Below are positions 12,905-63,287 of a stretch of 64,000 nt of DNA, piece after piece. The stretch is taken from the NCBI GenBank assembly GCA_035772405.1, contig JAYKKM010000227.1, positions 218,501 through 282,500 on the forward strand, written 5' to 3'. Source of the stretch: Chrysogorgia sp. JL179-B06. Taxonomy: Eukaryota; Cnidaria; Anthozoa; Scleralcyonacea; Chrysogorgiidae. The notes beneath the pieces are model-generated. The model was not told the origin of the DNA. It saw nothing but the letters and a program-made list of their open reading frames with translations, and searched no databases. The stretch's first letter is position 1; each line of letters starts with the position of its first letter. The position numbers were made by a program, and so were the translations under genes.

Positions 12905-13861
12905 TTAATTATTCGCACATGTAATTATGTATATAAATTGTAAAAATATTTCCTTAAAGCCTTTTCTGTAAGATGCCTTCGAGAAACAGTATATGAAAGG
13001 GTTCAAACAAGAATTAGAAAATGCCAACACCTTGAATGTTTTATGTAATACTGAGTTAATTTCAGCCTTGTCCAACTGCACCAACATAAAATGAAGCTGG
13101 CTGGGTAACCAAAACAAAATTACTGAAAACGATGCGACAAAAGCCACAATAGTTGTTCTTCGTAATATGGCAGCGTTCCTGTTTTCCGGTCGTTCGATTT
13201 CTTGGTTGAAACCCACGTTGCTTCTTGACTTTCTTACGTGATTAATAATTTGAACATATGAAGCTATTATTATTATACCTGGAACTACAATAGCTCCCAA
13301 AAACCTGAATAGTGCTTGGACAATATTTTGAGTATACCTAACAGTAACGAAGTCTTCCCAGAAACAAACAAAAGAAGAACCGTTCTTCGTTTTTCTGTTA
13401 TTCACGCTGATTGCGGTGCCAACTTCGATAGTAAAGGCGACAATCCATGGTACAAAGACAAGAGTTGCGACCCGGAAACGAGATTGGGCGAAGTTTTTGT
13501 AAAACATAGGTTTAAACACTGCCAACCAGCGCTCGAAACTCAATGCAACACATGTGTAGATTGATGTTATTCCTAAGGAGAAAATCAAATATTGCGACCA
13601 CACCAACCTGCAATATAACTCTCTGGCGAAAACGTTTTCCGGGACACTGTAGCTATTCTCAGGCAAAATAAAAGATGGTATCACGATCAGCAAAAATCCT
13701 GTAAGAACGTCTTGCAGAGCCAAAGCAAAAATCAAACAGTTGTGGATTTTCTTTAACCAGGCTCTCTTCTTCATAAACAGCAAAAGAACGAGAATGTTCC
13801 CGGTCATTGCTACGATGGAAATGATGATAAAGAATGGTCTGGTTTGATCGACTTGTGACAT
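12905..13861 (-). CDS. Class A (rhodopsin-like) G-protein-coupled receptor, copy 1
   Basis: A single-exon 318-codon frame encodes a seven-helix receptor. Class A landmarks are all in place: Gly-Asn in TM1 (N22), the LALQD Asp in TM2 (D51), extracellular Cys at C84 and C166 able to form the usual disulfide, an ERW variant of the DRY motif (110-112), Trp in TM4 (W139), Pro in TM5 (P194), FWLP in TM6 (250-253) and NPFIY in TM7 (287-291). It should sit in the plasma membrane and couple to G proteins. The ligand cannot be read from the sequence; a peptide or small-molecule receptor of an invertebrate expansion is plausible. The N-terminus is very short (about 9 residues before TM1) with no signal peptide, and the C-tail is short. 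Copy 3 (28,020-28,976) differs at seven residues. Whether it is expressed is unknown. Confidence 0.9.
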   Translation of the reverse strand: MSQVDQTRPFFIIISIVAMTGNILVLLLFMKKRAWLKKIHNCLIFALALQDVLTGFLLIVIPSFILPENSYSVPENVFARELYCRLVWSQYLIFSLGITSIYTCVALSFERWLAVFKPMFYKNFAQSRFRVATLVFVPWIVAFTIEVGTAISVNNRKTKNGSSFVCFWEDFVTVRYTQNIVQALFRFLGAIVVPGIIIIASYVQIINHVRKSRSNVGFNQEIERPENRNAAILRRTTIVAFVASFSVILFWLPSQLHFMLVQLDKAEINSVLHKTFKVLAFSNSCLNPFIYCFSKASYRKGFKEIFLQFIYIITCANN

Positions 13862-14060
13862 TATTTTCTCTACATTTGATATATTTCGTGTGGTTTTGCT
13901 TCCCAGCGTTCTGGTTTAGTGCTGCAAGAAATCCTTTATTAATGAATAAAAAGCATGTGCATAATCGCTACAAGTGTGTAATTATATTGCCTATATTAAA
14001 GTACAATATTAATAATGTGTTCTTGGCATTGTGAAACGATATTTTATACGTTTTTTTAAC

Positions 14061-28019: not shown

Positions 28020-28976
28020 TTAATTATTCGCACATGTAATTATGTATATAAATTGTAAAAATATTTCCTTAAAGCCTTTTCTGTAAGATGCCTTCGAGAA
28101 ACAGTATATGAAAGGGTTCAAACAAGAATTAGAAAATGCCAACACCTTGAATGTTTTATGCAATACTGAGTTAATTTCAGCCTTGTCCAACTGCACCAAC
28201 ATAAAATGAAACTGGCTGGGTAACCAAAACAAAATTACTGAAAACGATGCAACAAAAGCCACAATAGTTGTTCTTCGTAATATGGCAGCGTTCCTGTTTT
28301 CCGGTCGTTCGATTTCTTGGTTGAAACCCACGTTGCTTCTTGACTTTCTTACGTGATTAATAATTTGAACATATGAAGCTATTATTATTATACCTGGAAC
28401 TACAATAGTTCCCAAAAACCTGAATAGCGACTGGACAATATTTTGAGTATACCTAACAGTAACGAAGTCTTCCCAGAAACAAACAAAAGAAGAACCGTCC
28501 TTCGTTTTTCTGTTATTCACGCTAATTGCGGTGCCAACTTCGATAGTAAAGGCGACAATCCATGGTACAAAGACAAGACTTGCGACCCGGAAACGAGATT
28601 GGGCGAAGTTTTTGTAAAACATAGGTTTAAACACTGCCAACCAGCGCTCGAAACTCAATGCAACACATGTGTAGATTGATGTTATTCCTAAGGAGAAAAT
28701 CAAATATTGCGACCACACCAACCTGCAATATAACTCTCTGGCGAAAACGTTTTCCGGGACACTGTAGCTATTCTCAGGCAAAATAAAAGATGGTATCACG
28801 ATCAGCAAAAATCCTGTAAGAACGTCTTGCAGAGCCAAAACAAAAATCAAACAGTTGTGGATTTTCTTTAACCAGGATCTCTTCTTCATAAACAGCAAAA
28901 GAACGAGAATGTTCCCGGTCATTGCTACGATGGAAATGATGATAAAGAATGGTCTGGTTTGATCGACTTGTGACAT
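28020..28976 (-). CDS. Class A (rhodopsin-like) G-protein-coupled receptor, copy 3
   Basis: A 318-codon uninterrupted frame with the same landmarks as copy 1: N22, D51, C84/C166, ERW at 110-112, W139, P194, FWLP and NPFIY. Seven residues differ (positions 34, 46, 133, 160, 183, 190 and 256), all conservative or at loop/helix surfaces, and none touches a motif. By eye I count about four silent differences in the coding sequence against these seven replacements. Both full-length copies therefore remain open, but purifying selection is not obvious. The 5' flank is shared with copies 1 and 2, so promoter elements within the first 200 bases are probably shared as well. Ligand and expression are unknown. 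Confidence 0.9.
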   Translation of the reverse strand: MSQVDQTRPFFIIISIVAMTGNILVLLLFMKKRSWLKKIHNCLIFVLALQDVLTGFLLIVIPSFILPENSYSVPENVFARELYCRLVWSQYLIFSLGITSIYTCVALSFERWLAVFKPMFYKNFAQSRFRVASLVFVPWIVAFTIEVGTAISVNNRKTKDGSSFVCFWEDFVTVRYTQNIVQSLFRFLGTIVVPGIIIIASYVQIINHVRKSRSNVGFNQEIERPENRNAAILRRTTIVAFVASFSVILFWLPSQFHFMLVQLDKAEINSVLHKTFKVLAFSNSCLNPFIYCFSKASYRKGFKEIFLQFIYIITCANN

Positions 28977-29175
28977 TATTTTCTCTACATTTGATATATT
29001 TCGTGTGGTTTTGCTTCCCAGCGTTCTGGTTTAGTGCTGCAAGAAATCCTTTATTAATGAATAAAAAGCATGTGCATAATCGCTACAAGTGTGTAATTAT
29101 ATTGCCTATATTAAAGTACAATATTAATAATGTGTTCTTGGCATTGTGAAACGATATTTTATACGTTTTTTTAAC

Positions 29176-34246: not shown

Positions 34247-35893
34247 TTATATTATATCATGTATATGGTAATTATTCATGATATGCGCATAACTATAATA
34301 TATAAGTTTCATAACTACATCATACCCCAGGCCCTTATCACTAACAGTTTCCGCAGCATGCCTACCAATATACACGTCGAAGTCAACGGTATAGCCATTA
34401 CTGCTATCGGCCAAAACCCAAAGTTTTATCCCCCACTTAGTGGGCTTATCCCTGATGTACTGCCTAATGCCAAACCTATGTCTAGATTTAACCATACGTT
34501 CATCAATGGCAACACTCTGTTTGGGCTGATACAAACTGACGCACCGGGATTTGAAATAGGTGATGAACGCATTTACTTTCCGCAACTTATCCCCGGGGGC
34601 TTCGGCATTTGGGTCTACAACATGCAAAAAGGCCATGAGAGCACTAAACCTATCCCTTGACATTATGGCCCGGGCCCACAATCCATGGTATAGTGACTTA
34701 GTACTCCAATAATTAAACTGTACATTTACCCGCACTAAACCAAAATAAAGAAGAAGAGCAATTAGTCTATCTATCTCTTCAGGGGTAGTTTCTTGCCAAC
34801 TACCATCAGACTTTGTGTAGGCGCTGTGTGTACCTGATGCAATGTGTGTGTAAGCATATGTGTTTGTATGAGCTACTATACTAGCTAACATTTCTACACT
34901 AATAAAAAGATGAAAAACTCACTAGCAGTGGTCATGGTACCTCTAACTGTGGGCTGATCAAAGTGTACTCCGGGTGGGCGGGTTGGCTGAAATGCTGGAA
35001 TGTCATTTCCAACATCAGGGTCCCCATAGCTCATCCAAGCTGGGGCCGTAACCTGGCCCCTTCCCCTAGCCCGACCCCTACCACTTGCCGTACCACTGGG
35101 AACTCCAGCCTCCCCCCCTTGTACAGGAACCGCAGCTTGGGCCCTACCCCGGCCCCTACCACGGCCCCTACCACTTGCCCTACCACGGGGAACCCTGGCC
35201 TGCCTACCATTACCACAGACCCGACTGCTGGTTCCAACCTCACCACCAGCATCAGGAATGATATAAGTATCTCATGCAGTAAACAATGGTATCAAATAAT
35301 TAGCTAACAAGTAGTTTCTTCACAACATCTTATTCAGCATAATAGCTCCGTCTCTCAGTCGTGAAATAGTACTTTTAGTACTCCAAATATGTTCTGTTAT
35401 ATATAGAAGACATTTACTGGGAATACACAACTACACAAGGCTTCAAATGTAAAAATACCATTGGGGTATTTAAATTTTGTCTCTAACAATAGGCCATGCG
35501 TCACAGAATTAGCACGCTTGATAATCCGTCTCTGCAGCGCTCGCACGATTTTGTGTTTCTTGCTCATAACACAACCGTTTTTACCAAAGAAAAGTTCTCG
35601 ATACATCTCCGAACAATTTCTTGATATGATAAGCAATGTTTCAAACACAATATATGAAGATATCGACTAAAATTACATCGCTTCCCAAACACGCAAAAAA
35701 TATTTCCGACATGGCCGCGTGGCATATTTTAGACTCACCTCGTTAGTTCGTCGAAATCCATCAGTTGGTGGTCGATGTCCGATTCTTCTCCGCTTGACAT
35801 TCCTCCACGATCACTATCACATTCATTCATATCTACTAAAACCTCCAAAACCTCTTCAGCAGTGAAACGAACCCTCTTAGGACGACTCGCCAT
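34247..35893 (-). pseudogene. piggyBac-type transposase, truncated and frame-shifted
   Basis: On the minus strand, a first exon starts at 35,893 (MASRPKRVRFTAEE...) and ends at a GTGAGT donor near 35,739. A Gly/Arg-rich stretch with PPGVHFDQPTVRGT lies at about 35,260-34,920. One base shift near 34,920 leads into 34,891-34,247, which has the DDE_Tnp_1_7 body: EIDRLIALLLYFGLVR, RDRFSALMAFLHVVD, the first catalytic Asp in IDERMVKSRHR and the second in LADSSNGY. The frame diverges after GLGYDVVMKL, so the third catalytic Asp and the C-terminal Cys-rich domain are missing. It cannot be active. piggyBac elements cut and paste at TTAA; I could not place its ends. Confidence 0.85.
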
Positions 35894-35899
35894 TGTGAA

Positions 35900-36464
35900 G
35901 AAGTGAAGGTCAGGTTGCGCGACACGCTGTGTTTGGCAACCGCCACCTAACAAGGCAGCCAATCAGTGTGTTTGTTATTTTCAACTGACCAATCACAGTT
36001 CTTTAGATAGCCCAGACTCTCAGCTTCAAATCAAGCCTATTTTTATATTTTTCCGATGAATTCCGACGGTAAAACGACTGTACTATCCTTCCAATGACTG
36101 ATTTTCACGATCTTCTTCCATGCAGTCAATACAACGACTTAACAACAACAACAATATGCAACACCATTCGACCATTAATTGCTAAACTCTGACTGCGTGA
36201 CGTCACATTCAATCTTCTTTAATACGCGCATCACGAGCATTTTTCAATCTCAAACAGCTATATTCGGCAATTTAAGTCTAATAATATGTTTTCACGTAGA
36301 GGAGGACAAAATACAATGGAATTCGACGGTTTCGAAGAGCTATTGTATATTTCACGGTTTGATTGTCTATAAAAACAAATTTTTCTTGCATGTATTAAAA
36401 TTAGAAATCGTTCATTGATGTGCGAGGTTACACAAAACCGCTGAACCTCTCTAGCATATATCAC
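35900..36464. other. Non-coding stretch upstream of piggyBac remnant
   Basis: No gene or RNA is recognised. Short frames on both strands lack any known motif. Confidence 0.5.
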
Positions 36465-38035
36465 TGGAATTACTGAGATTAATAAGATTACAAGTGTTAC
36501 AGAGATTACTAAGATTACCGGTATAAAGATTACAGGGATTACTAAGATTACGCGGATTACTAATATTACAGGTATTACTAAGATTACAGGGATTACTAAG
36601 ATTACAAGGATTACAGGGATTACTAAGATTACAGGGATTACTAAGATTACAAGGAATACTAATATTACAGGGATTACTAAGATTACAAGGATTACTAAGA
36701 TTACAGGGATTACTAAAGATTACAAGGATTACTAAGATTACTAGGATTACTAAGATTACAAGGATTACTAAGATTACAAGGAATACTAATATTACAGGGA
36801 TTACTAAGATTACAAGGATTACTAAGATTACAAGGATTACTAAGATTACAGGTATTACTAAGATTACAGGGATTACTAAGATTACAGGGATTACTAAGAT
36901 TACAAGGATTACTAAGATTACAAGGATTACTAAGATTACAGGTATTACTAAGATTACAGGGATTACTAAGATTACAAGGATTACTAAGATTACAGGTATT
37001 ACTAAGATTACAGGGATTACTAAGATTACAGGGATTACTAAGATTACAGGATTACTAAGATTACAAGGATTACTAAGATTACAAGGATTACTAAGATTAC
37101 AGGTATTACTAAGATTACAGGGATTACTAAGATTACAGGGATTACTAAGATTACAGGGATTACTAAGATTACTAAAATTACAAGGATTACTAAGATTACA
37201 AGATTACTAAGATTACAAGGATTACTAAGATTACAAGGATTACTAAGATTACAAGGATTACTAAGATTACAGGTAGTACTAAAATTACTGGAATTACTAA
37301 GATTACAAGGATTACTCAGATTACAGGGATCACTAAGATTACAAGGATTACTAAGATTACAGGAATTACTAAGATTACAAGGATTACTAAAGATTACAAG
37401 GATTACTAAGATTACAGGGATTACTAAAGATTACAAGGATTACTAAGATTACTAGGATTACTAAGATTACAAGGATTACTAAGATTACAAGGATTACTAA
37501 GATTACAAGGATTACTAAGATTACAAGGATTACTAAAGATTACAAGGATTACTAAGATTACAGGGATTACTAAGATTACAGGGATTACTAAGATTACAGG
37601 GATTACTAAGATTACAAGGATTACTAAGATTACAAGGATTACTAAGATTACAAGGATTACTAAGATTACAAGGATTACTAAGATTACAGGGATTACTAAG
37701 ATTACAGGGATTACTAAGATTACAAGGATTACTAAGATTACAAGGATTACTAAGATTACAGGGATTACTAAGATTACAGGGATTACTAAGATTACAGGGA
37801 TTACTAGGATTACTAGGATTACTAAGATTACTAGGATTACTAAGATTACAAGGATTACTAAGATTACAAGGATTACTAAGATTACAAGGATTACTAAGGT
37901 TACAGGGATTACTAAGATTACAGGGATTACTAAGATTACAAATATTACTAGGATTACAAATATTACTAGGATTACTAAGATTACAGGAATTACAGGGATT
38001 ACCAAGATTACAGATTTCCTAGGATTACAGGGATT
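36465..38035. repeat. GATTAC minisatellite, about 1.57 kb
   Basis: Tandem 18-base units of the type ATTACTAAG-ATTACAAGG, each made of two related 9-mers. The fourth block varies among ACAGGG, ACAAGG and ACAGGT. Units lose order at both edges. The minus strand gives a long Val-Ile-Leu frame that is a by-product of the repeat, not a gene. Confidence 0.95.
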
Positions 38036-42717: not shown

Positions 42718-43084
42718 TTTAAAATATATACCATTTCTTTATAATACTGCAGAATAGTAAGTGGAAGTACAAATTTTGGAATTGCATGTACAGTATGTTT
42801 ATTATTTGATTACAATTATAAATACTATATGCTTGATAATTAGCCTATATATACAGTAGTTTAGGGTGAAAAAACATGCACACTATTGCTGTGTTTATAT
42901 GACCTGGGCCTGGCCTACAATTTTGTAGCAATAAACAAGCATTACTATGTATACTTGTCAGTGTTAATACTTAATATATACACTGCTGTAGTGAATAAGG
43001 GAGAGCTTGGGGGGAAACAGACGATACAGTACAATGGATGATTGTCAAGCAAGATCATATCCTCAGAAAAATTATTCTGTGTCC

Positions 43085-43150
43085 CGGACGCGGATAACTT
43101 TCTGATTTCCAGTGAGATGCTCTGACCATTAAGCTACCAAGACTCAGATG
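43085..43150 (-). other. tRNA-like fragment (minus strand)
   Basis: Reverse complement reads TAGCTTAATGGTCAGAGCAT, an A-box-like D arm, then an anticodon-arm-like TCTCACTGGAAATCAGA. The T arm is decayed. A similar fragment in the opposite orientation lies at 43,315-43,370. Confidence 0.3.
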
Positions 43151-53796: not shown

Positions 53797-55425
53797 AGAT
53801 TCGAGGTCAGACGAATTAGCACCTCCCGAGGAATGTCGACGGGATTCCGTCGAGTGTCTGGGGCGTGAAGAAAGAATGCCTGCATATGAAACCGAGAAAG
53901 TGCGTCAGCAATGACATTGGTTTTGCCCGGAACGTGTGTTGCCGTCACTTTAAAATTATGGTGTGCGGTGATAAGATATAGAGCGCGCAGCAGATGCATC
54001 ATGCGCTCATCCTTAGATGTACCCGAGGTAATGACAGACACTACACTTTCGTTGTCGCATGCAAACTGAATGCGCTTTCTAGACCACGCCTTTGCCCAAA
54101 TATGGCAGGCGAGCACGATGGGAAACAATTCTTTGTAGGCAATGTTCAACGGTTGTTGAGACGAAGACCAAGACCCATTAAACCATTCTCCATTATAATA
54201 CACCCCAAAACCTTTGCTTCCCGATGCGTCCGACGAAACCGAGATATCAGGGGGCAAGGCCCACTCAGGTAGGTCGAAAAAATACACCCCATTCCAAGGT
54301 GGAAGAAAGTCTTACCACCAGGCAATATCAAGCTGACACTGTTTGTTGAGACGTAGAAAAGGCCGAAAACGGTTTGCTCCTTTCAACAAGTCTAGTAAAC
54401 GCCTCAAAAATGTGCGGCCCTGCGGGATTACAGCGCAAGCGTGGTTTAATTTGCCCACTAGTGATTGAAGTTCCTTTGGTTTGCACCATTTTTTCCGTCC
54501 CCACTTCTCTAAAAGACCAACGATTTCGCTCAACTTATCGCTTGGCAGTCGTGCGGTCATGGCCACCGAGTCAAGTTCGATCCCCAGGAACACTAAACGA
54601 GTGGAAGGGCCTTCGCATTTTTCCGGGGCTAGAGGAACGCCGAGCGTTGTTGCTGCACGATCAATTGCTTGTAATCGCTTAGTGCAAATGTTAGTTCCCG
54701 CCGGTCCTAGTGTAAAATAGTCATCCAGATAGTGAAGTAAGTCGTGCACGTCATAATTGTTAACCAACGCCCACTCAAATAGATCCGCGACGCTGTTAAA
54801 GATTCCCGGGGCAGATCGTAAGCCAAATGGGAGTGCCAGATCAACGTAATATTCCCCTTTCCAACGCATACCTAATAAGTACCTGTCCGCGGGGTGCACC
54901 GGAACAATTCGATACGCGCTTTTAATATCGACCTTGCCCATCAGCGCACCTTTCCCATACTTTATTATCAAAGCAATAGCGTCTTTTACTCTGGAGTACG
55001 TCAGAGAAAACTCTTCTTTATCTATACCATCGTTTCACGCTATGGTCAAACCGATAAGATAGATCCAAGATAAGCCGCCACCCACCTCCCTTCTTTGGAA
55101 TGACTCCGAAGCGACTTGTGTGGAGATTAGGGAGGGGTGGGTTGCCACATGGTCTAGAGACACGGCCTAGTTTGACTTCTTTGTTCAAATATTCGTCAAT
55201 GATAGACGGGTGTTTGTAAGCTGACGGACAATTTGTCTCTGCTGCTTTGAGCGTCGCTAGTTCCGGGTGAAAACCAAGAGAAAAACCAACACGAAAACCA
55301 TTTAAAACATACTCGACCTTGCGTCTGTCCGGATGTGCGCACAGCTGCAGTTCGAAATTTAGAATATTGATTGGTGACACCAAGCTGACATTTAACATAT
55401 TAAACCGTGCAAAAGGTGCTAAAAT
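53793..55425 (-). pseudogene. DIRS-like reverse transcriptase / RNase H
   Basis: From the insertion point the frame reads LQLCAHPDRRKVEYVLNGF, SRPCGNPPLPNLHTSRFGV and WRLILDLS. A one-base shift near 55,036 leads into MGKVDIKSAYRIVPVHP, LPFGLRSAPGIFN and the catalytic HYLDDYF (near 54,720). RNase H follows in the same frame: SSDASGSKGFG, YKELFPIV, ACDNESVV, NVIADALSR, which carries the Asp/Glu set. A single TAA at 54,312-54,314 separates the two domains without a frame change, so it is a nonsense mutation. The 5' part is cut by the fold-back insertion at about 55,425. Confidence 0.87.
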
Positions 55426-55435
55426 CGTGGGTTTG

Positions 55436-55535
55436 GTAGAAAACGCGGACTTGCGGACTGCGGACTTGCGGACTGCGGACTTGCGGACTGCGGACTTGCG
55501 GACTTGCGGACTTGCGGACTGCGGATTTGCGGACT
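55436..55535 (+). repeat. 15-bp subterminal tandem repeat (GCGGACTTGCGGACT)
   Basis: About six overlapping copies of GCGGACTTGCGGACT-type units occupy the left tip of the fold-back element. Two or three units remain in the mirrored tip at 63,235-63,275. Subterminal repeats of this kind are commonly binding sites for a transposase. Confidence 0.8.
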
Positions 55536-56380
55536 TGCAAAATTTTTTTGTAAAATCATATTTCTAATTTAGAGTCTTTTAGCATGTTTAGCCTCTAACT
55601 TTCGGCAACGGCCCTTATTGTGTAATACAATACACACACATGGTTTATTAAATCTGACAATTTCAACTCTTACATGTTAGGGGTTTTTAAATAAATTAGC
55701 ATCTTTACCGATAGAACAGTTCTTTTTATGTGTCGGTAACGACAGGGACTTGCTGAAACTAAACAGACACATACAATTGAGCGATACATCTCCGCGTTTC
55801 CTATTGTTAAGTAATTAAGTAGATTTTCTCTCACCTGCGCCTATATTTAACCTATATCTAATTGTAAATATCTCACTCTGATGATGTTACGGGTTGTGAA
55901 GAAACGTTGGTATTAAAATTTTCTTAAAGATATTAGGGACCGGTCATAAAGTAACTGCTAGGGTGGGCCGGAGTGATTTGGGATGGGCTATGGAAAATTT
56001 TTGGGCAGTTTCGATGGGCCACCAATTTTTTTGTATGTCCATGGTTGGGCCACCAAACAAAAACCAATGTCTACTTAAAAAAATAAAGATATTAATAAAA
56101 GCAAACAAAATTATCAAATGGGATATTAAATAGATGTATTATGCAGTATATAATGAGCAGAAATAATGTATATTTGTTTAACATTGCTGATAGGATGGAC
56201 TCTTCCCGCACTTCAGGTCGACCCATAGTGAGGTTTTATATACAACAAAAATTGGCTTTTAAGACACATTCTCCCTAACTGAATGGACATATACTTTCAT
56301 ATTTACAAATCTAATGTTAATTTTGTTCAATTATCATCTGATTCTGATGAAAGCGAGGAGTTGTTTGTATGTTCAAATAT

Positions 56381-57957
56381 CTAAATTATCACCAGATGTA
56401 TCCATAGACATACGAGGAGTTCCATGGCTTGATGGTAGAGGTGCAAACATGCTGAGGATAGAAGGCTGCTTTTTATTTTCCTTAGTCTTTTCTTTTCTTT
56501 TCTTTGATGATTTGCTTGTGAGATTAATTCCTGTTTGTGTGTTAGTGCATCTAACATACCTTGTGCTACAGGCAAAGCATCATCATCAAACCACTTATTC
56601 TCAATTAAGTGGCTTAAAGCTTTCAGATGATACCTTGGGCTAAGATCTTTCTTTGGGCATACATCAGCTTTCACAATTTTGGTGTTCTGGGATTTCATAT
56701 CATCAAATACAACTTTCCCATCTGTAATTATTTTGAGAACTTCACTGACCTTTGCATGTAAGCGGTTCTCTCTTCTCACTTCTGTTTTTCGCTTATTTTC
56801 TTGCCGTCGCTTACGCTTTCTTTTGCTCTCAGCGACTTCATCATTAACAAGTGAAAGTTTTCTTTTTAGGGTGCCAATATTGGTGATTATCTTTGTTTGG
56901 CACTCCTCTAATTTGCATTTCATGGCTTCTGAGTCAGCCATTCTATCATCGTAAAATTTCAATTCATGAGCTTTCCACGACTTCACATTATTTTCTTTGT
57001 TAAATAAAGTTGACCGTTGTTTCATAATGATGTCAATATATGTTGAAATGTTGGAAACAGCTGAATCGATGATGTCCTTAGCTGCATCTGCTTTGGCACC
57101 ATCACCTGCTTGAATTGATCCTAATTCATCAGTTGAGAATCTCTGAATATTCTGAGAATTGCCATCCTTGCTGCCTTCACCCAGTAAATTATTCACTCTT
57201 TCTTTCCACTCGTTAACAATCCGTTGGATTTTCCATCGAGTATGACGCTGCTCGAGCACTTCATTTTTAAATTGTATTGGCGGGATTAAATCATAGATAG
57301 CTTCATACAGTTCAATCAGTACAGCATTATTAAATTCTAACTGAGGTGTCAATGGATTTGGGATCCATAGATCCTTAGCTGTTGCTGGCCCTATATTTAA
57401 AAGAACAAACGGAACGTTGGATTTACATATAAACTAGTATTTAAATATTATTTATCAAGTTCGATTGTGTATTAAAAATACACGAGATAGTCGAATTTAT
57501 AAATAGCGCCCTTCTTGACATTCTTCTTGCCTTTCAATTTCAATATAATTATTATATACAACCACTGTACAAGAGAAATTAAACAAGGATGTGTGAAATT
57601 AAAACAAGAATGCATGAAATTTATAAAAATATAAAACTCACATGTAGACATATCAGTGGAAATTTTGTCTTTCACTGAGTGGACAATAGTATCAAAGTGG
57701 CTTGGCTCTCCATGCTTCGACTTGGAATTCAAAATTTGCAAGGCAGCAACAAATCGTTTTCTATGGCCTGGCTTATGAACAAGGCCAACTTCTGCAATCA
57801 CAACAGCCAGATCTTCGGCGGACATCTCGAGAAGCTGTGGCAGATCATCATAACCAAGATTCGAAAACGAATCATAATATTGTGCCAGGTTATTTCTCTC
57901 CAGAAAATTCTTAATTTCCTCTGTTGCCTCTATTTCTTTCGGCATAATATTTATCAT
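56381..57957 (-). CDS. SAM-domain / coiled-coil protein of the inner transposon (two exons)
   Basis: Exon 1 (57,957-57,642) encodes a SAM-like domain at about residues 10-70: IKNFLERNNLAQYYDSF, LGYDDLPQLLEMSAEDL, PGHRKRFVAALQIL. A GTGAGT donor at 57,641 and a TATAG acceptor ending at 57,391 remove a 251-base intron. The join makes one Trp codon and keeps the frame into exon 2 (57,390-56,381), for 441 codons in all. Exon 2 has WIPNPLTPQ, a Trp-rich helix region, then a long Lys/Arg/Glu-rich segment (KRKRKRRQENKRK) with coiled-coil and nuclear-localisation character. SAM domains make protein-protein contacts, so an accessory role beside the transposase is likely but inferred. The last about 20 codons may be shifted, because another frame also reads well there. 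It is transcribed away from the transposase gene across a 209-base spacer. Confidence 0.75.
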
Positions 57958-58166
57958 AGTTAATATTTATAGAACGATCACAAGACTCGCTTTGGGCGCT
58001 AGAAGGTATTGCAGAAGGAATACCGCTGATATTGGCAACGCGGGCGCTGAATTGGGCTTCGCCCGCGTTGCAAGCTCCAGAGGTTTTCTTAATTTATCAC
58101 ATGACCCTCTAGCGCCTCCATAATTTCCATAATAGTAATACGTTTATACATGAATCATGAATAAAC
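57958..58166. promoter_or_regulatory. Divergent promoter region of the inner transposon
   Basis: 209 bases separate the two start codons. The middle has an 11-bp GC-rich inverted repeat, GCAACGCGGGC (58,035-58,045) and GCCCGCGTTGC (58,061-58,071), in otherwise AT-rich sequence. It is a candidate protein-binding or shared promoter element. No TATA box is convincing. Confidence 0.45.
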
Positions 58167-61100
58167 ATGACTACTACGACAATATTAAATATAAACAAAG
58201 TGCGCACTGCTATTAGAAGAGATTCCCGACTGACAAAAAACGTCGTAGGTTCTCTTCAAACTTGTAAGTTGGATGAGAATGAGGATTTACTGACGAAAAA
58301 TATCAATGCCATAGATGAACATGCAGAGTCGCCCGAGATCATGACGCATAGAAATAACCTAAGAGGACTGCGTGCCGTATTACAGCAACTGCTTTGCATC
58401 ACAAGCGCTGGAAACAGAAGTGTACGATTCTCTTACATTCAATTTCACGAAGCATTTGCTTTATTTTTGTCTTTTCACCCTGGTCTTACCGCAGAAAGTC
58501 TTAAAGATACAAATCGCCAAAAGCTTTTTAAGGAGTTACTCTGCCACCCAAAGCACGGACTATCTGTTTATGTTATCAGCAGCAAATACATATTACTGAG
58601 ATCATCTGATGTGGATCTAGAACTGTTTATTGAAGACATCGTGTCCTCTAATGATAACAGTGAAGTCGAAGAGGGTCGAATACTCATTTCACGCGATTTG
58701 CTACAAGATATGTTGAACAGCATGGATTCCGCATGGGATAAAAAAGTTTTGAAGGTGGCATTGTGTGGCACTCGTAGTAGGCATCAGTTACAAGAACTTG
58801 GGATTGGTTCTCGTATACAGCAGTATACCCAATCTGTATTGGAAACCATACAAGAAAAAAAGACAGCTGAAAATGATGCACGTAAGCTCGTTGTTGGAAA
58901 TCTTGAACGGAAAGCAGCAAACATTGGCAAACGCATACAGAAAGAAAAATTTAAGTTGGCTCAAAAATGCCATAAGTGGAATGAGGTACAGTTGCATGAA
59001 CTGCAAGAGATTATTGATGATTTAACAGAACAATATACAAGTGTCCACAAACTGCTTGACAACAAGTCTGGCAGCAAAAATCTTAATCATATGGTAAAAC
59101 GAAAGCATCGTAAACTTGTCATGGAGAAACGGATTGGTATGAGAAAGTCAGGAACAGGCAGACCTCGTGCAATGGATGAAACTGATGAAAACTATGTTTT
59201 AGAGTGCATTGAAAACAAAGCCACAGCCCATGGACGTCGACATGACAGTGTTATGTATTTGAATCATCGAGTCAAAAAGAAGGATTTCTTAAGACTAACC
59301 AACACCAGTAGAATTTCACGTGGCCTGAAGCCTATTAAATCTGCTACAACTGTATTTAATCGAGCCCGTCCAAGAAATCGCAGATCACTGCAAGCAAAAA
59401 AACACCTTGGACTGGGATTGTTTTGTTCTAAGAAGCCACCAAAGCTAGAAGATAATGAGAACATTCTCACACATCACCAACGTACCTTCAAGAAAGCAAT
59501 ACTAATGGCACGATGTGGTGAAGATGATGAAGAGAAGATGAAGCACAATCTATTCATATCAAGAGATGATAAAGCTTATATATGTCCTGGAACTGGCACT
59601 GGTATGCAGAGTGCTCGAAATGTGAAGATTGTTCAACCATCGGATCCTTCAAAGCAAAGGGTATTGCCAAAGTATGATTTTCCAGAGCGCCTGGTAAATG
59701 CCACTCCAGGTGTAAACCGGATCATGCATTATGAAATTATTAAAGAGTTGGGTTCAAAAGATCAACTAAAGATGGCAGATACTGAAGTTGTAGTATTCAA
59801 TAGGCCAAAGAATTTTGTTGGGAGTAATGGTTCTGTGTGGGCTTCAGAATACATGAGACTACGCTATGAAGAGCCAGTACTTTTTGTTGTAGATGAAAGT
59901 GAACTCAAATCATCCACATCATCGCTTACAAAGCTTGTTGATCAGTTAAAGTTGTATTGCCTCATGTCTAACAAGTCTGTTTTTTTTGAACATATCACCA
60001 AACCTCAGTTGTGCTCATCGTCAATATGAAATCCTTAGAGCTACAAGTCTTGTTCGTATACTGACATCTTTCCAAGATGCTTTTGAAGAAGAGCGTAATA
60101 ACTATTTGGATGTAGACATGAACACTCTTGCTGAACTGGTTAATTCATCCACAGAATTGTTGGGGAAATTGCAGTCTGATTGTCATCATTCTGTTATTTG
60201 GGATGCCATGGAAGCCCTTCTCAAATCATGCAGGCAAAATGTGACAAATCTAGCTAAATGTCTACCTGAATTCAAGTCTAGAATTCATGAGTTCACTGAT
60301 GCTGGTCCAGGTGTAGGCATAACAAATCATGATGTGAAAGTTCGTTGTGCTGAAATCATTCTACTGACTGGCATTGATTATTATATCAGACATCATTTGG
60401 CTAATGGTGATAGCAGCCAAAATGAGGTTGAAAACGCTGTCAGAGTTACGTTGGTGATGCCATATGTGATGGTGGAGCTTTGATTTGGGAATACAAATCA
60501 TCATATGAGGGACTAACAGAAGAACAAATTTCTGCCATGAGTTTTGATGAACTGGAGAAAAGCGAACATGATAGAATGAAATACAATGCTTTTAAGGTAT
60601 GTGAGGAACTTACTTACCGAATTGATGGGGCAACTGCTCCTGGAGGATTCATGAAAGCCTATACATCGCAAGATTCAGATGATTTGTTTTTTAACAATCA
60701 CGATCATTTGAAAGCCTTCTTATCTACCACAGATATAAAGGTAGATAAAAAACAATGCCCTGGTTGGAATTATTTTACTATGCTGAAACATTTCTTTGAC
60801 CAGCATGTTGAAGTTGGAGAAAAATACATGGAGTATGTCAAATGTACTTGTGAGCATTGTGAAATTTGTGCTACAAATACCTGGGTTGGACCTGCTTGTT
60901 ATAAGGTGCCAAAACCTTACCCAGATTACACCAGTGATGGATTTCACTATTTGGATGTTAATAGTACCCCAACTGAAGTTGATGGTGAAGCTAGGGCAAT
61001 TGATGATTTCCAGCCCAGAAAACAAGCAGCTGACCAAAGGAAAGAAAAAAAGCTAGAAAGTGAGGAACAGGTGGACACATTTTCAAAAACGTTTATTGTT

Positions 61101-61673
61101 GAGAAAACGAAATTGAGAAAATATATTGAACACCTAACTTATTTGGAGATTAAAAGAAAGAAAAGAGCAGAGAACAGAAAACAATTGTCAGAGCAAGAAC
61201 AGCAGAAAACATTTTTAGAATATAATTGGTTGGAATTATTTGAGAAAGGTTTGTTGTCAAAACTCAAAGTAAATGTTCTGGACAAATACTTATCTAATTA
61301 TAAACTGCAGGGCCAATTGAAATTAAAGAAAGCAGAGAAAGTACGTGTAATTCAGAGACATATTGCTACAACACATGTGGAGCTAGATGCAGGTATTGAA
61401 GATCAACCATTGATAGATATGGATCAAGAACTAGATACAGATCAACCATGTGACACAGAATCAGAAACTAACTCTGAGCTTGACTCTGGGGATAGTGCAA
61501 ATGACATAGTTTTAGCAGATACTTATCTTTCTCATTCATCATCTAGTAGTGAAGAACATGAAACACTAGCAAATGATGCTTTTGAAGCTAATACTTTGTT
61601 TACAACAACAAGAAGTGGTCGAATCACAACAAATACAACCAGCTGGAGAGCAGCTCAGTATCGTAATTGGTGA
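58167..61673 (+). CDS. DDE-type transposase-like protein of the inner transposon (two homopolymer frameshifts)
   Basis: The coding region spans about 1,170 codons in three overlapping frames. The N-terminal part (to about residue 330) is helical, with coiled-coil stretches and basic clusters. A candidate RNase-H-fold core follows: Asp in ISRDDKAYICPG (residues 467-468), Asp in FTDAGPGVG (codon at 60,298) and Glu in SSQNEVE (60,424). A GDAICDGGALIWEY block comes next, then a Cys cluster CTCEHCEICA (near 60,845), an acidic Ser-rich stretch and a TTTRSGRITTN end. Frames change once at T8 (59,980-59,987) and once back at A4 (60,431-60,434); these offset each other. They could be real mutations or read errors. 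The start at 58,167 is the first ATG after the divergent spacer. I recognise the DDE pattern but not the family. Confidence 0.7.
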
Positions 61674-62104
61674 TGAATGAGTGTTGATCGAGCTTGGTGG
61701 AATTATGTATATTCATACAGTGCTGGTGTATATTTACAATTTTACCTGTAAGTTTTTTTATTATAAAAGTGTATTTTCCCAACTACAGGTATAATATAAA
61801 CTAAAATATATGTATGTAAAATTAATTTATGTATGACTTGTATGTACAAATACAATTGTGAAAATTCCACCATACATTGCCATTCGTTGGTTGCAGTATT
61901 CAACAGTTACCTTCAATAAAGTGTATGGCAAATGTCAAGGCGGCTGGAAAAGATTGGGTGGGTGGGTGGGTCATGAAATAAATTTGGTAAGATTAGATGG
62001 GCTTTGAAATTTTTATTGACATCCTAAGATGGGTCACCAAAATTATTGGCAAAATTTGTGATTTACCTCCAGCCCACCCTAGCAGTTACTTTATGACCGG
62101 TCCC
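61674..62104. other. 3' non-coding end and right TIR of inner transposon
   Basis: AT-rich, no gene. A GTGGGTGGGTGGGT run at about 61,960 and GATGGGTCACCAAA phrases resemble the GATGGGCCACCAA phrases near the left end (about 56,010-56,055), pointing to shared subterminal motifs. Confidence 0.6.
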
Positions 62105-62107
62105 TTA

Positions 62108-63287
62108 TGTCTATAATATTCCTTTAGTGCTTTACTCAAAGTTATTTGTTAACTATATATATAACGTTAGATGAATCTCTAATAATCAATTTAATAAACA
62201 ACGTGAGTGTAGTGTATTACACCATAAGTGCCGTTGCAGAAAGTTCCGATTTCTGCTTTGTCTGAAAGTTAGGACCACTGAAACTCAGGCAAACCAGCCG
62301 TGTATTTTTTAAAGGATTCCTTGAGACTAGACAAGACTGCCAGCTCAAAAGTAGCCAGAGTTAACACCAGGCAGCCTAAACGCCGTCTTGCCACTGCTAG
62401 TTTTCACCACGGTTAATATAGTCATTTAATACTTCATTATATGTCAAATGATGATCAAATCGACACCTAAATGCTCTTTTGTATGTTAGGACTTTGATAA
62501 GGTCATACCTTTTTGGTCGCTCCGTGTTTAACTATGCAAGCGCCCTAAACAAACCCATATACTAAATAAATTATTTAGTGCGGGGATACTAAATACTGCA
62601 TTCGATATTTTACTTGATATTTTCTATTTTCTTTATTGTCTCCAACAACCACTACTTGATGAACTACGTGTAACTGGACCCGAGATTCATCTAACGTTAT
62701 AACAGTTAACAAATACTTGGCGGAAAGCGAAGTCTTGTTAAGAATATGATTCGGCCCAGGAAATAACTTTGAGTAAAGCACTAAAGGCATATTATAGACA
62801 TAATATCTTTAAGAAAATTGTAATACCAACGTTTCTTCACAACCCGTAACATCATCAGAGTGAGATATTTACAATTAGATATAGGTTAAATATTGGCGCA
62901 GGTGAGAGCAAATCTACTTAATTACTCAACAACAGGAAACGCGGAGATGTATCGCTTAGTTGTATGTGTCTGTTTATAGTTTCCGCAAGCCCCAGTGTCG
63001 TTACATAAAAAGAACTGTTCTATCAGTAAAGATCAATAGGCTAATTTATTTAACCTCGCGCAGCAAGGCCGCGAAAAAACCGCTAACATGTAAGAGTTGA
63101 AATTGTCAGGTTTAATAAACCATGTGTGTGTATTGTATTACACCATAAGGGCCGTTGCCGAAAGTTAGAGGCGAAACATGCTAAAAGACTCTAAATTAGA
63201 AATATGATTTTATAAAAAATTTTTTGCAAGTCCACAAATCCGCAGTCCGCAAGTCCGCAGTCCGCAAGTCCGCGTTTTCTACCAAAC
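62108..63287. other. Right arm of the fold-back element
   Basis: Contains the mirror of the left arm (about 62,790-63,287), an internal inverted pair (62,108-62,185 with 62,697-62,808), and a diverged direct copy of the GTATTACACCATAAG(T/G)GCCGTTGC block (62,213 and 63,138). No gene is seen. Confidence 0.65.

Follow-up and report, generated by a model that had tools for sequence, protein, structure and literature searches.

The question raised by this locus is what kind of DNA transposon it holds and what the second gene of that transposon is for. The window (the whole 64-kb stretch of DNA analysed, positions 218,501 to 282,500 of contig JAYKKM010000227.1 of Chrysogorgia sp. JL179-B06) contains at 55936-62104 an element which the original prediction, made from the sequence alone, had described as pairing a large DDE-type protein with a SAM-domain protein and as belonging to no assigned superfamily. 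To our knowledge, a second protein required for mobility is encoded by only a few DNA transposons of eukaryotes, in none of which it makes use of a SAM domain. The element in the window is very probably the inactivated copy of an autonomous DNA transposon with two genes and recent mobility, the SAM protein being its likely helper.

The predicted ends held up under direct comparison. The terminal inverted repeats (TIRs), GGGACCGGTCATAAAGTAACTGCTAGGGTGGGC, are perfect over exactly 33 bp (37 of 38 positions match over 38 bp), and a 21-base TIR pattern, with up to three mismatches allowed, occurs within the window only at the two element ends, against 0.01 occurrences expected. The window also has an unbroken copy of the insertion site: the element flanks joined with one TTA match positions 62920-62761 over 160 columns at 97.5% identity with no gap, and the unbroken site reads a single TTA and then TG. 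Because the joined flanks match this site, the ends and the 3-bp duplication can be taken as real. The features of the ends are as follows.

55936-62104, transposable element, ends set by the TIRs and the TTA duplication
55933-55935, no strand, left target site duplication TTA
55936-55968, plus strand, left TIR, 33 bp, perfect
56013-56025, plus strand, subterminal motif GATGGGCCACCAA, read from the sequence, repeated near the right end
62028-62040, plus strand, subterminal motif GATGGGTCACCAA, read from the sequence, right-end counterpart
62072-62104, minus strand, right TIR, 33 bp, perfect
62105-62107, no strand, right target site duplication TTA
62761-62920, minus strand, unbroken insertion-site copy (paralogous empty site) with a single TTA, from the flank-joining comparison

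The two subterminal motifs are possible candidates for protein-binding sites. The empty site is an inverted duplicate of the target region, lying about 650 bp to the right of the element and without it.

Searches of the 781-Mb host genome scored 40 matches for each end, so the counts are lower bounds. The left end was found in at least eight places at 96-100% identity over 165 bp, the window included, and in more diverged places in addition; the right end was found in at least nine places at 96% or more. Eight 6-kb copies, here called family A (the window and L215-L221), are 99.27-99.92% identical to each other in pairwise comparison over ungapped columns, and each of the eight holds the two genes in whole or for the most part (L216, in which there is an insertion, was taken without its right end, and C393, with a right end only, was left out of the set). 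In copy L218 the transposase frame (1170 codons) is open throughout, and so are SAM exon 2 (366 codons) and a stretch of exon 1. The element family has thus amplified recently in the host genome. In addition, 13 places with short-type elements were taken (L222-L234), ten of them with both ends and all ten with a TTA or TAA duplication. No transposase match was found in any of the ten; nine keep recognisable SAM remnants, which in L223 lie over different frames, and one, of 654 bp, has no SAM match. They look like non-autonomous relatives that lost the transposase. Elements L222-L226, L228, L229, L231 and L232 form a group of 2.5-3.2 kb without transposase in which SAM remnants are kept. The near-equal length of L223, L224 and L225 (2731-2732 bp) suggests a burst, and L228 and L231 are probably one duplicated insertion because they share flanks. 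Collecting copies by their TIRs, as had been proposed at the outset, therefore yielded the same termini and the predicted 3-bp duplication, with TAA found as well as TTA. The empty-site comparison was extended to the joined flanks of all 30 two-ended elements, compared with the window and the fetched genomic loci. Besides the window copy, L219 and L225 have unbroken counterparts across the junction with no shift there: L219 sits within a tandem array that also has uninterrupted units (best match 240 columns, 95.8%, no gap), and the counterpart of L225 is 90.4% identical, with a single TTA and with gaps away from the junction. Weaker matches spanning the empty-site junction were obtained for L218 and L223.

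The first gene encodes the large protein. In the window it is spread over three overlapping frames (58161-60029, 59950-60483 and 60432-61673), with the second break directly behind the presumed catalytic glutamate codon, and read through the breaks it gives 1169 amino acids. A protein search found 40 homologues, most of the full-length ones about 1,100-1,230 amino acids long; P0001 comes nearest, with 94% identity across the region searched, and seven carry species names (Nematostella vectensis, Pocillopora meandrina, Porites lobata, Mytilus edulis, Mytilus coruscus and, twice, Ptychodera flava). Residues are numbered below after homologue P0002.

58167-61673, plus strand, transposase gene, intronless, with two frame breaks in the window copy
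59565-59570, plus strand, first presumed catalytic aspartate (SRDDKAY; D455/D456 of P0002)
60298-60300, plus strand, second presumed catalytic aspartate (TDAGPGVG; D698 of P0002)
60424-60432, plus strand, presumed catalytic glutamate region (NEVE; E740/E742 of P0002), followed by the frame break
61214-61366, plus strand, SAP-like (Ku70-type) C-terminal domain, from a profile comparison with Ku70

The fold was read from a predicted model of P0002 (pLDDT 77.6). A strand at 449-455 ends in D455/D456 and is followed by strands 500-515 and 518-534 and helix 542-555; after an all-helical stretch (571-683) come strand 692-697 and D698, then helix 708-721, strand 725-730 and helix 740-753, which carries E740/E742. 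This is the order of strands and helices of the RNase-H transposase core. The acidic residues are conserved in the homologue alignment (D455 and D456 in 35 of 35 sequences, D698 in 40 of 40, E740 in 36 of 37, E742 in 37 of 37), with 43 residues between D698 and E742 in P0002. The model, the conserved acidic residues and the 1170-codon frame of L218 agree with the original view of a DDE-type protein of about 1,170 codons, and a core with RNase-H fold and DDE triad, which would carry out catalysis, is predicted. The helical insertion sits in the P0002 model between helix 1 and strand 4. In other eukaryotic DDE transposases most insertions are found between strand 5 and helix 4, which would make the position seen here unusual. 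The C-terminus is predicted to be a SAP-like, Ku70-type domain: a profile of six homologous pieces matched the Ku70 construct 1jjr with an E-value of 3.9e-8 over two stretches (best stretch 0.0032) and full-length Ku70 with 0.067, and a Pfam search of the C-terminal piece gave no match above the cut-off. In a relative from another lineage (L238, lineage D below) the transposase frame has an extra 33-residue stretch directly after NEVERIQSYV, just past the third motif, which is perhaps an intron read through.

The second gene, divergently transcribed and spliced as had been predicted, lies to the left of the transposase gene.

57642-57957, minus strand, SAM-partner gene exon 1 (SAM domain)
57391-57641, minus strand, SAM-partner gene intron (GTGAGT...AG), donor at 57641, AG acceptor ending at 57391
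56373-57390, minus strand, SAM-partner gene exon 2 (helical part); in the window copy its frame is disrupted close to the 3' end
56445-56468, minus strand, QPSILSMF, PCNA-box-like motif near the C-terminus of the SAM protein, found also in P0041, P0042 and copy L218

Exon 1 of the window matches SAM families in Pfam (PF04904 at 1.6e-10 and PF00536 at 5.9e-09, both above gathering scores), and homologue P0043 reads straight across the junction of exons 1 and 2. Exon 2 goes out of frame near its 3' end in comparison with P0041 and L218. A SAM fold is predicted for the partner protein, the model of which was likened to the Eph-receptor SAM in fold comparison. As the frames of both genes are broken, the window copy is unable to make either full protein.

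It seems that the two genes have travelled together for long. A translated genome search with P0002, in which 41 of 500 candidates were scored, gave at least 29 transposase places. We examined 23 of these, the eight of family A and 15 more, leaving out C428, C518, C260, C472, C75 and the second C43 place. Grouped by likeness and termini, the further loci fall into lineages B (L235, L242, L243, L248), C (L236, L237, L241), D (L238), E (L239), F (L240, L249) and G (L244, L245), with L246 and L247 outside the assigned lineages. The transposases of seven representatives of A-G are 31-60% identical to each other and keep the acidic residues D455/D456, D698 and E740/E742, and the termini start with GGGACC in all seven lineages. 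Perfect TTA or TAA duplications flank 18 of the 20 transposase-bearing elements with two ends, and 28 of 30 when the ten short elements are counted. The SAM gene was found in 20 of the 23 loci (8/8 in family A and 12/15 elsewhere) and in all seven lineages, with Pfam SAM matches above the gathering score in exon 1 of lineages A-E. The search models for the SAM gene had been built from A-E and two homologues, so L235, L236, L238 and L239 match by construction, and the matches in L237, L241, L242, L243 and L248 add members to B and C; the finds in L244 and L245 (G) and L249 (F) are independent. Over the 21 lineage pairs, the identities of the transposase and of SAM exon 2 are correlated with r 0.96, a value reached by 11 of 5040 label permutations and owed in large part to the closer groups C/F/G and A/B. 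Such co-varying identities are as expected if the two genes travelled together, which was the original expectation for the SAM partner. Scans of viral contigs and of bacterial and archaeal genomes with one or two short peptide patterns found no relatives.

Several observations weigh against the interpretation of the element as a copy of an autonomous two-gene transposon with a helper. All support comes from sequence and models. Neither gene is intact in the window copy, and among the eight family-A copies seven have a disrupted transposase frame. Perfect duplications are lacking in L235 (TTA/CCT) and L240 (TAA/TGA), and the unbroken units that match L219 read CTA where its target has TTA. Copies with different termini or without the SAM gene had been named beforehand as evidence to the contrary: the termini proved alike, and the SAM gene was not found in three of the 23 loci, namely L240 (internally shortened; its sister L249 carries the gene), L246 (one end found) and L247 (no end found). 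Since short elements with SAM remnants have multiplied in the absence of a transposase gene, the partner can be dispensed with in cis. In comparisons of the whole transposase model with the PDB, neither Foldseek nor VIA-align, whose list was filled by helical bundles, gave a transposase among the matches listed, and Foldseek against viral models likewise listed none; the RNase-H assignment is for this reason based on topology and conserved residues. The E-values of the SAM rows in Foldseek were 0.17 or more.

If the transposon works as we propose, the large DDE transposase would cut the element out at the GGGACC-type TIRs and insert it at TTA or TAA with a 3-bp stagger, by cut-and-paste, we infer, rather than copy-out. 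The divergent, spliced second gene would supply a SAM-domain and helical-bundle partner that binds the transposase, the ends or both, and association between SAM domains would build or tether the transposition complex. A Myb-like protein serves Harbinger as a helper, and by this analogy a complex-building helper is the most likely role of the SAM partner. In some lineages the PCNA-box-like tail may point to a connection with replication or repair. The motif, labelled according to what we take to be the PCNA-box consensus, was recognised by eye in A, B and D and not in C, E, F or G, and being present in three of seven lineages it is not general.

The main rival to the helper role is that the SAM protein regulates its own element as a repressor or co-regulator, perhaps a captured host co-repressor of the NAB type. 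SAM_NCD1, the SAM family of NAB proteins, is indeed the best Pfam family of exon 1 in lineages A, B and C, and divergent transcription from a shared promoter region would suit feedback control. However, lineage D fits SAM_1 best and lineage E SAM_TNK, so that the NAB likeness may merely reflect the SAM fold, and no second NAB domain was matched. We consider self-regulation somewhat unlikely, and the complex-building helper is retained as the preferred role.

To which superfamily the element belongs was approached through the transposase. In Pfam no DDE family was among the matches listed for the 40 homologues at E<=1 (25 of 32 families listed, best 0.018) or found for three shortened cores at E<=10. 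With no strong match in Pfam or the PDB, the large protein could be assigned to no named superfamily, in line with the original prediction. A distant relationship to Zator/ISAzo13, for which 3-bp duplications are likewise described (PMC10045372, available part), is unlikely. The ISAzo13 profile (48 of 80 loci and four plasmid sequences; 2 of 52 were dropped for stops, leaving 50) gave the best score of four families in hhalign, a second sub-alignment places D2-to-E3 on D2-to-E3, and a common last-motif block, H-x-x-x-G-[DT]-S-x-x-N-x-[VI]-E-[RH], can be seen by eye. However, the score of 22.8 was reached by 8 of 100 shuffled profiles and exceeded in a 150-shuffle control (top 29.4), PF07592 was not among the matches listed for the homologues nor found for the three cores, and the first two aspartates are 242 positions apart in P0002 versus 93 in the ISAzo13 sequence L001. 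ISAzo13 elements are not known to carry more than one gene, and here a SAM gene travels with the element. With its suggestive register and a score not above shuffles, ISAzo13/Zator remains a lead and not a kinship. Comparisons with IS3 (10 of 80 loci and an E. coli sequence, 1 of 11 dropped for a stop), IS30 (9 of 37 loci and an E. coli sequence, 2 of 10 dropped) and IS5 (one sequence) were not above shuffles, 59, 47 and 58 of 100 being as good.

More doubtful still is the reading as a strongly diverged PIF/Harbinger (PHIS) element in which a SAM protein has taken the place of the Myb/SANT partner: the element resembles PIF/Harbinger, as described in the available text of PMC4482050, in TWA target duplications and in the layout of two genes, a DDE transposase and a second protein, but it has no Pfam DDE match (a HMMER result, with which remote kinship is compatible), the single IS5 sequence aligns no better than shuffles, the partner is SAM/helical with no Myb/SANT or YqaJ/THAP match, the core has the predicted helix 1/strand 4 insertion and the termini start with GGGACC. 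Neither protein matches that family in Pfam, as had been anticipated, and belonging to PIF/Harbinger is not shown. In ISL2EU (YqaJ protein) and KolobokP (His-Me finger endonuclease) a DDE transposase gene also travels with a second gene, but there the second proteins are of nuclease type. The duplications given for ISL2EU are AT and for Kolobok TTAA (PMC4482050 and PMC9587614, available parts). Kolobok and piggyBac were rejected since TTAA is needed there. The hAT/P/MuDR/Kolobok/Dada group was rejected as well: its signature is a C/DxxH motif between the second D and E (PMC9587614, available part), and by inspection no conserved C or D lies three residues before H730, which together with D724 and R728 is among the positions between D698 and E742 that are at least 85% conserved. 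A literature search for SAM-domain transposons found only one paper, on human elements, which tests their absence from print weakly. Judged against Pfam, the PDB and the four profiles, the large protein belongs to an unassigned and possibly undescribed superfamily. Tentatively, this may be an undescribed animal superfamily that needs two proteins, a DDE transposase with a helix 1/strand 4 insertion and a Ku70-like SAP tail and a SAM assembler, perhaps a polymer, docking to PCNA in some lineages.

Other features were seen in the neighbourhood. Reverse-transcriptase-like frames, recognised by eye, lie directly left of the element (54312-55563, minus strand), and a piggyBac-type transposase-like fragment was also noted by eye (34247-34918, minus strand). 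Two near-identical single-exon frames of 336 amino acids, rhodopsin-type receptor-like by eye and about 15 kb apart (12905-13915 and 28020-29030, both minus strand), are probably a recent duplication. A long repetitive stretch with open frames on both strands covers 36451-37210, and a tRNA family match at 43080-43143 (minus strand) has a score of 34.2 bits, the gathering score being 29.

Because near-identical copies exist, one of them with both frames open, the role of SAM oligomers in transposition is directly testable. Should the element represent a separate superfamily, it would add to the 20 DDE superfamilies given for Repbase in 2022 (PMC9587614, in its available part, which names them without partner descriptions), and a set of genes from cnidarians, molluscs and a hemichordate that are called 'uncharacterized' would be explained as transposases. 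The linked SAM gene suggests an unfamiliar, two-protein way of moving DNA.
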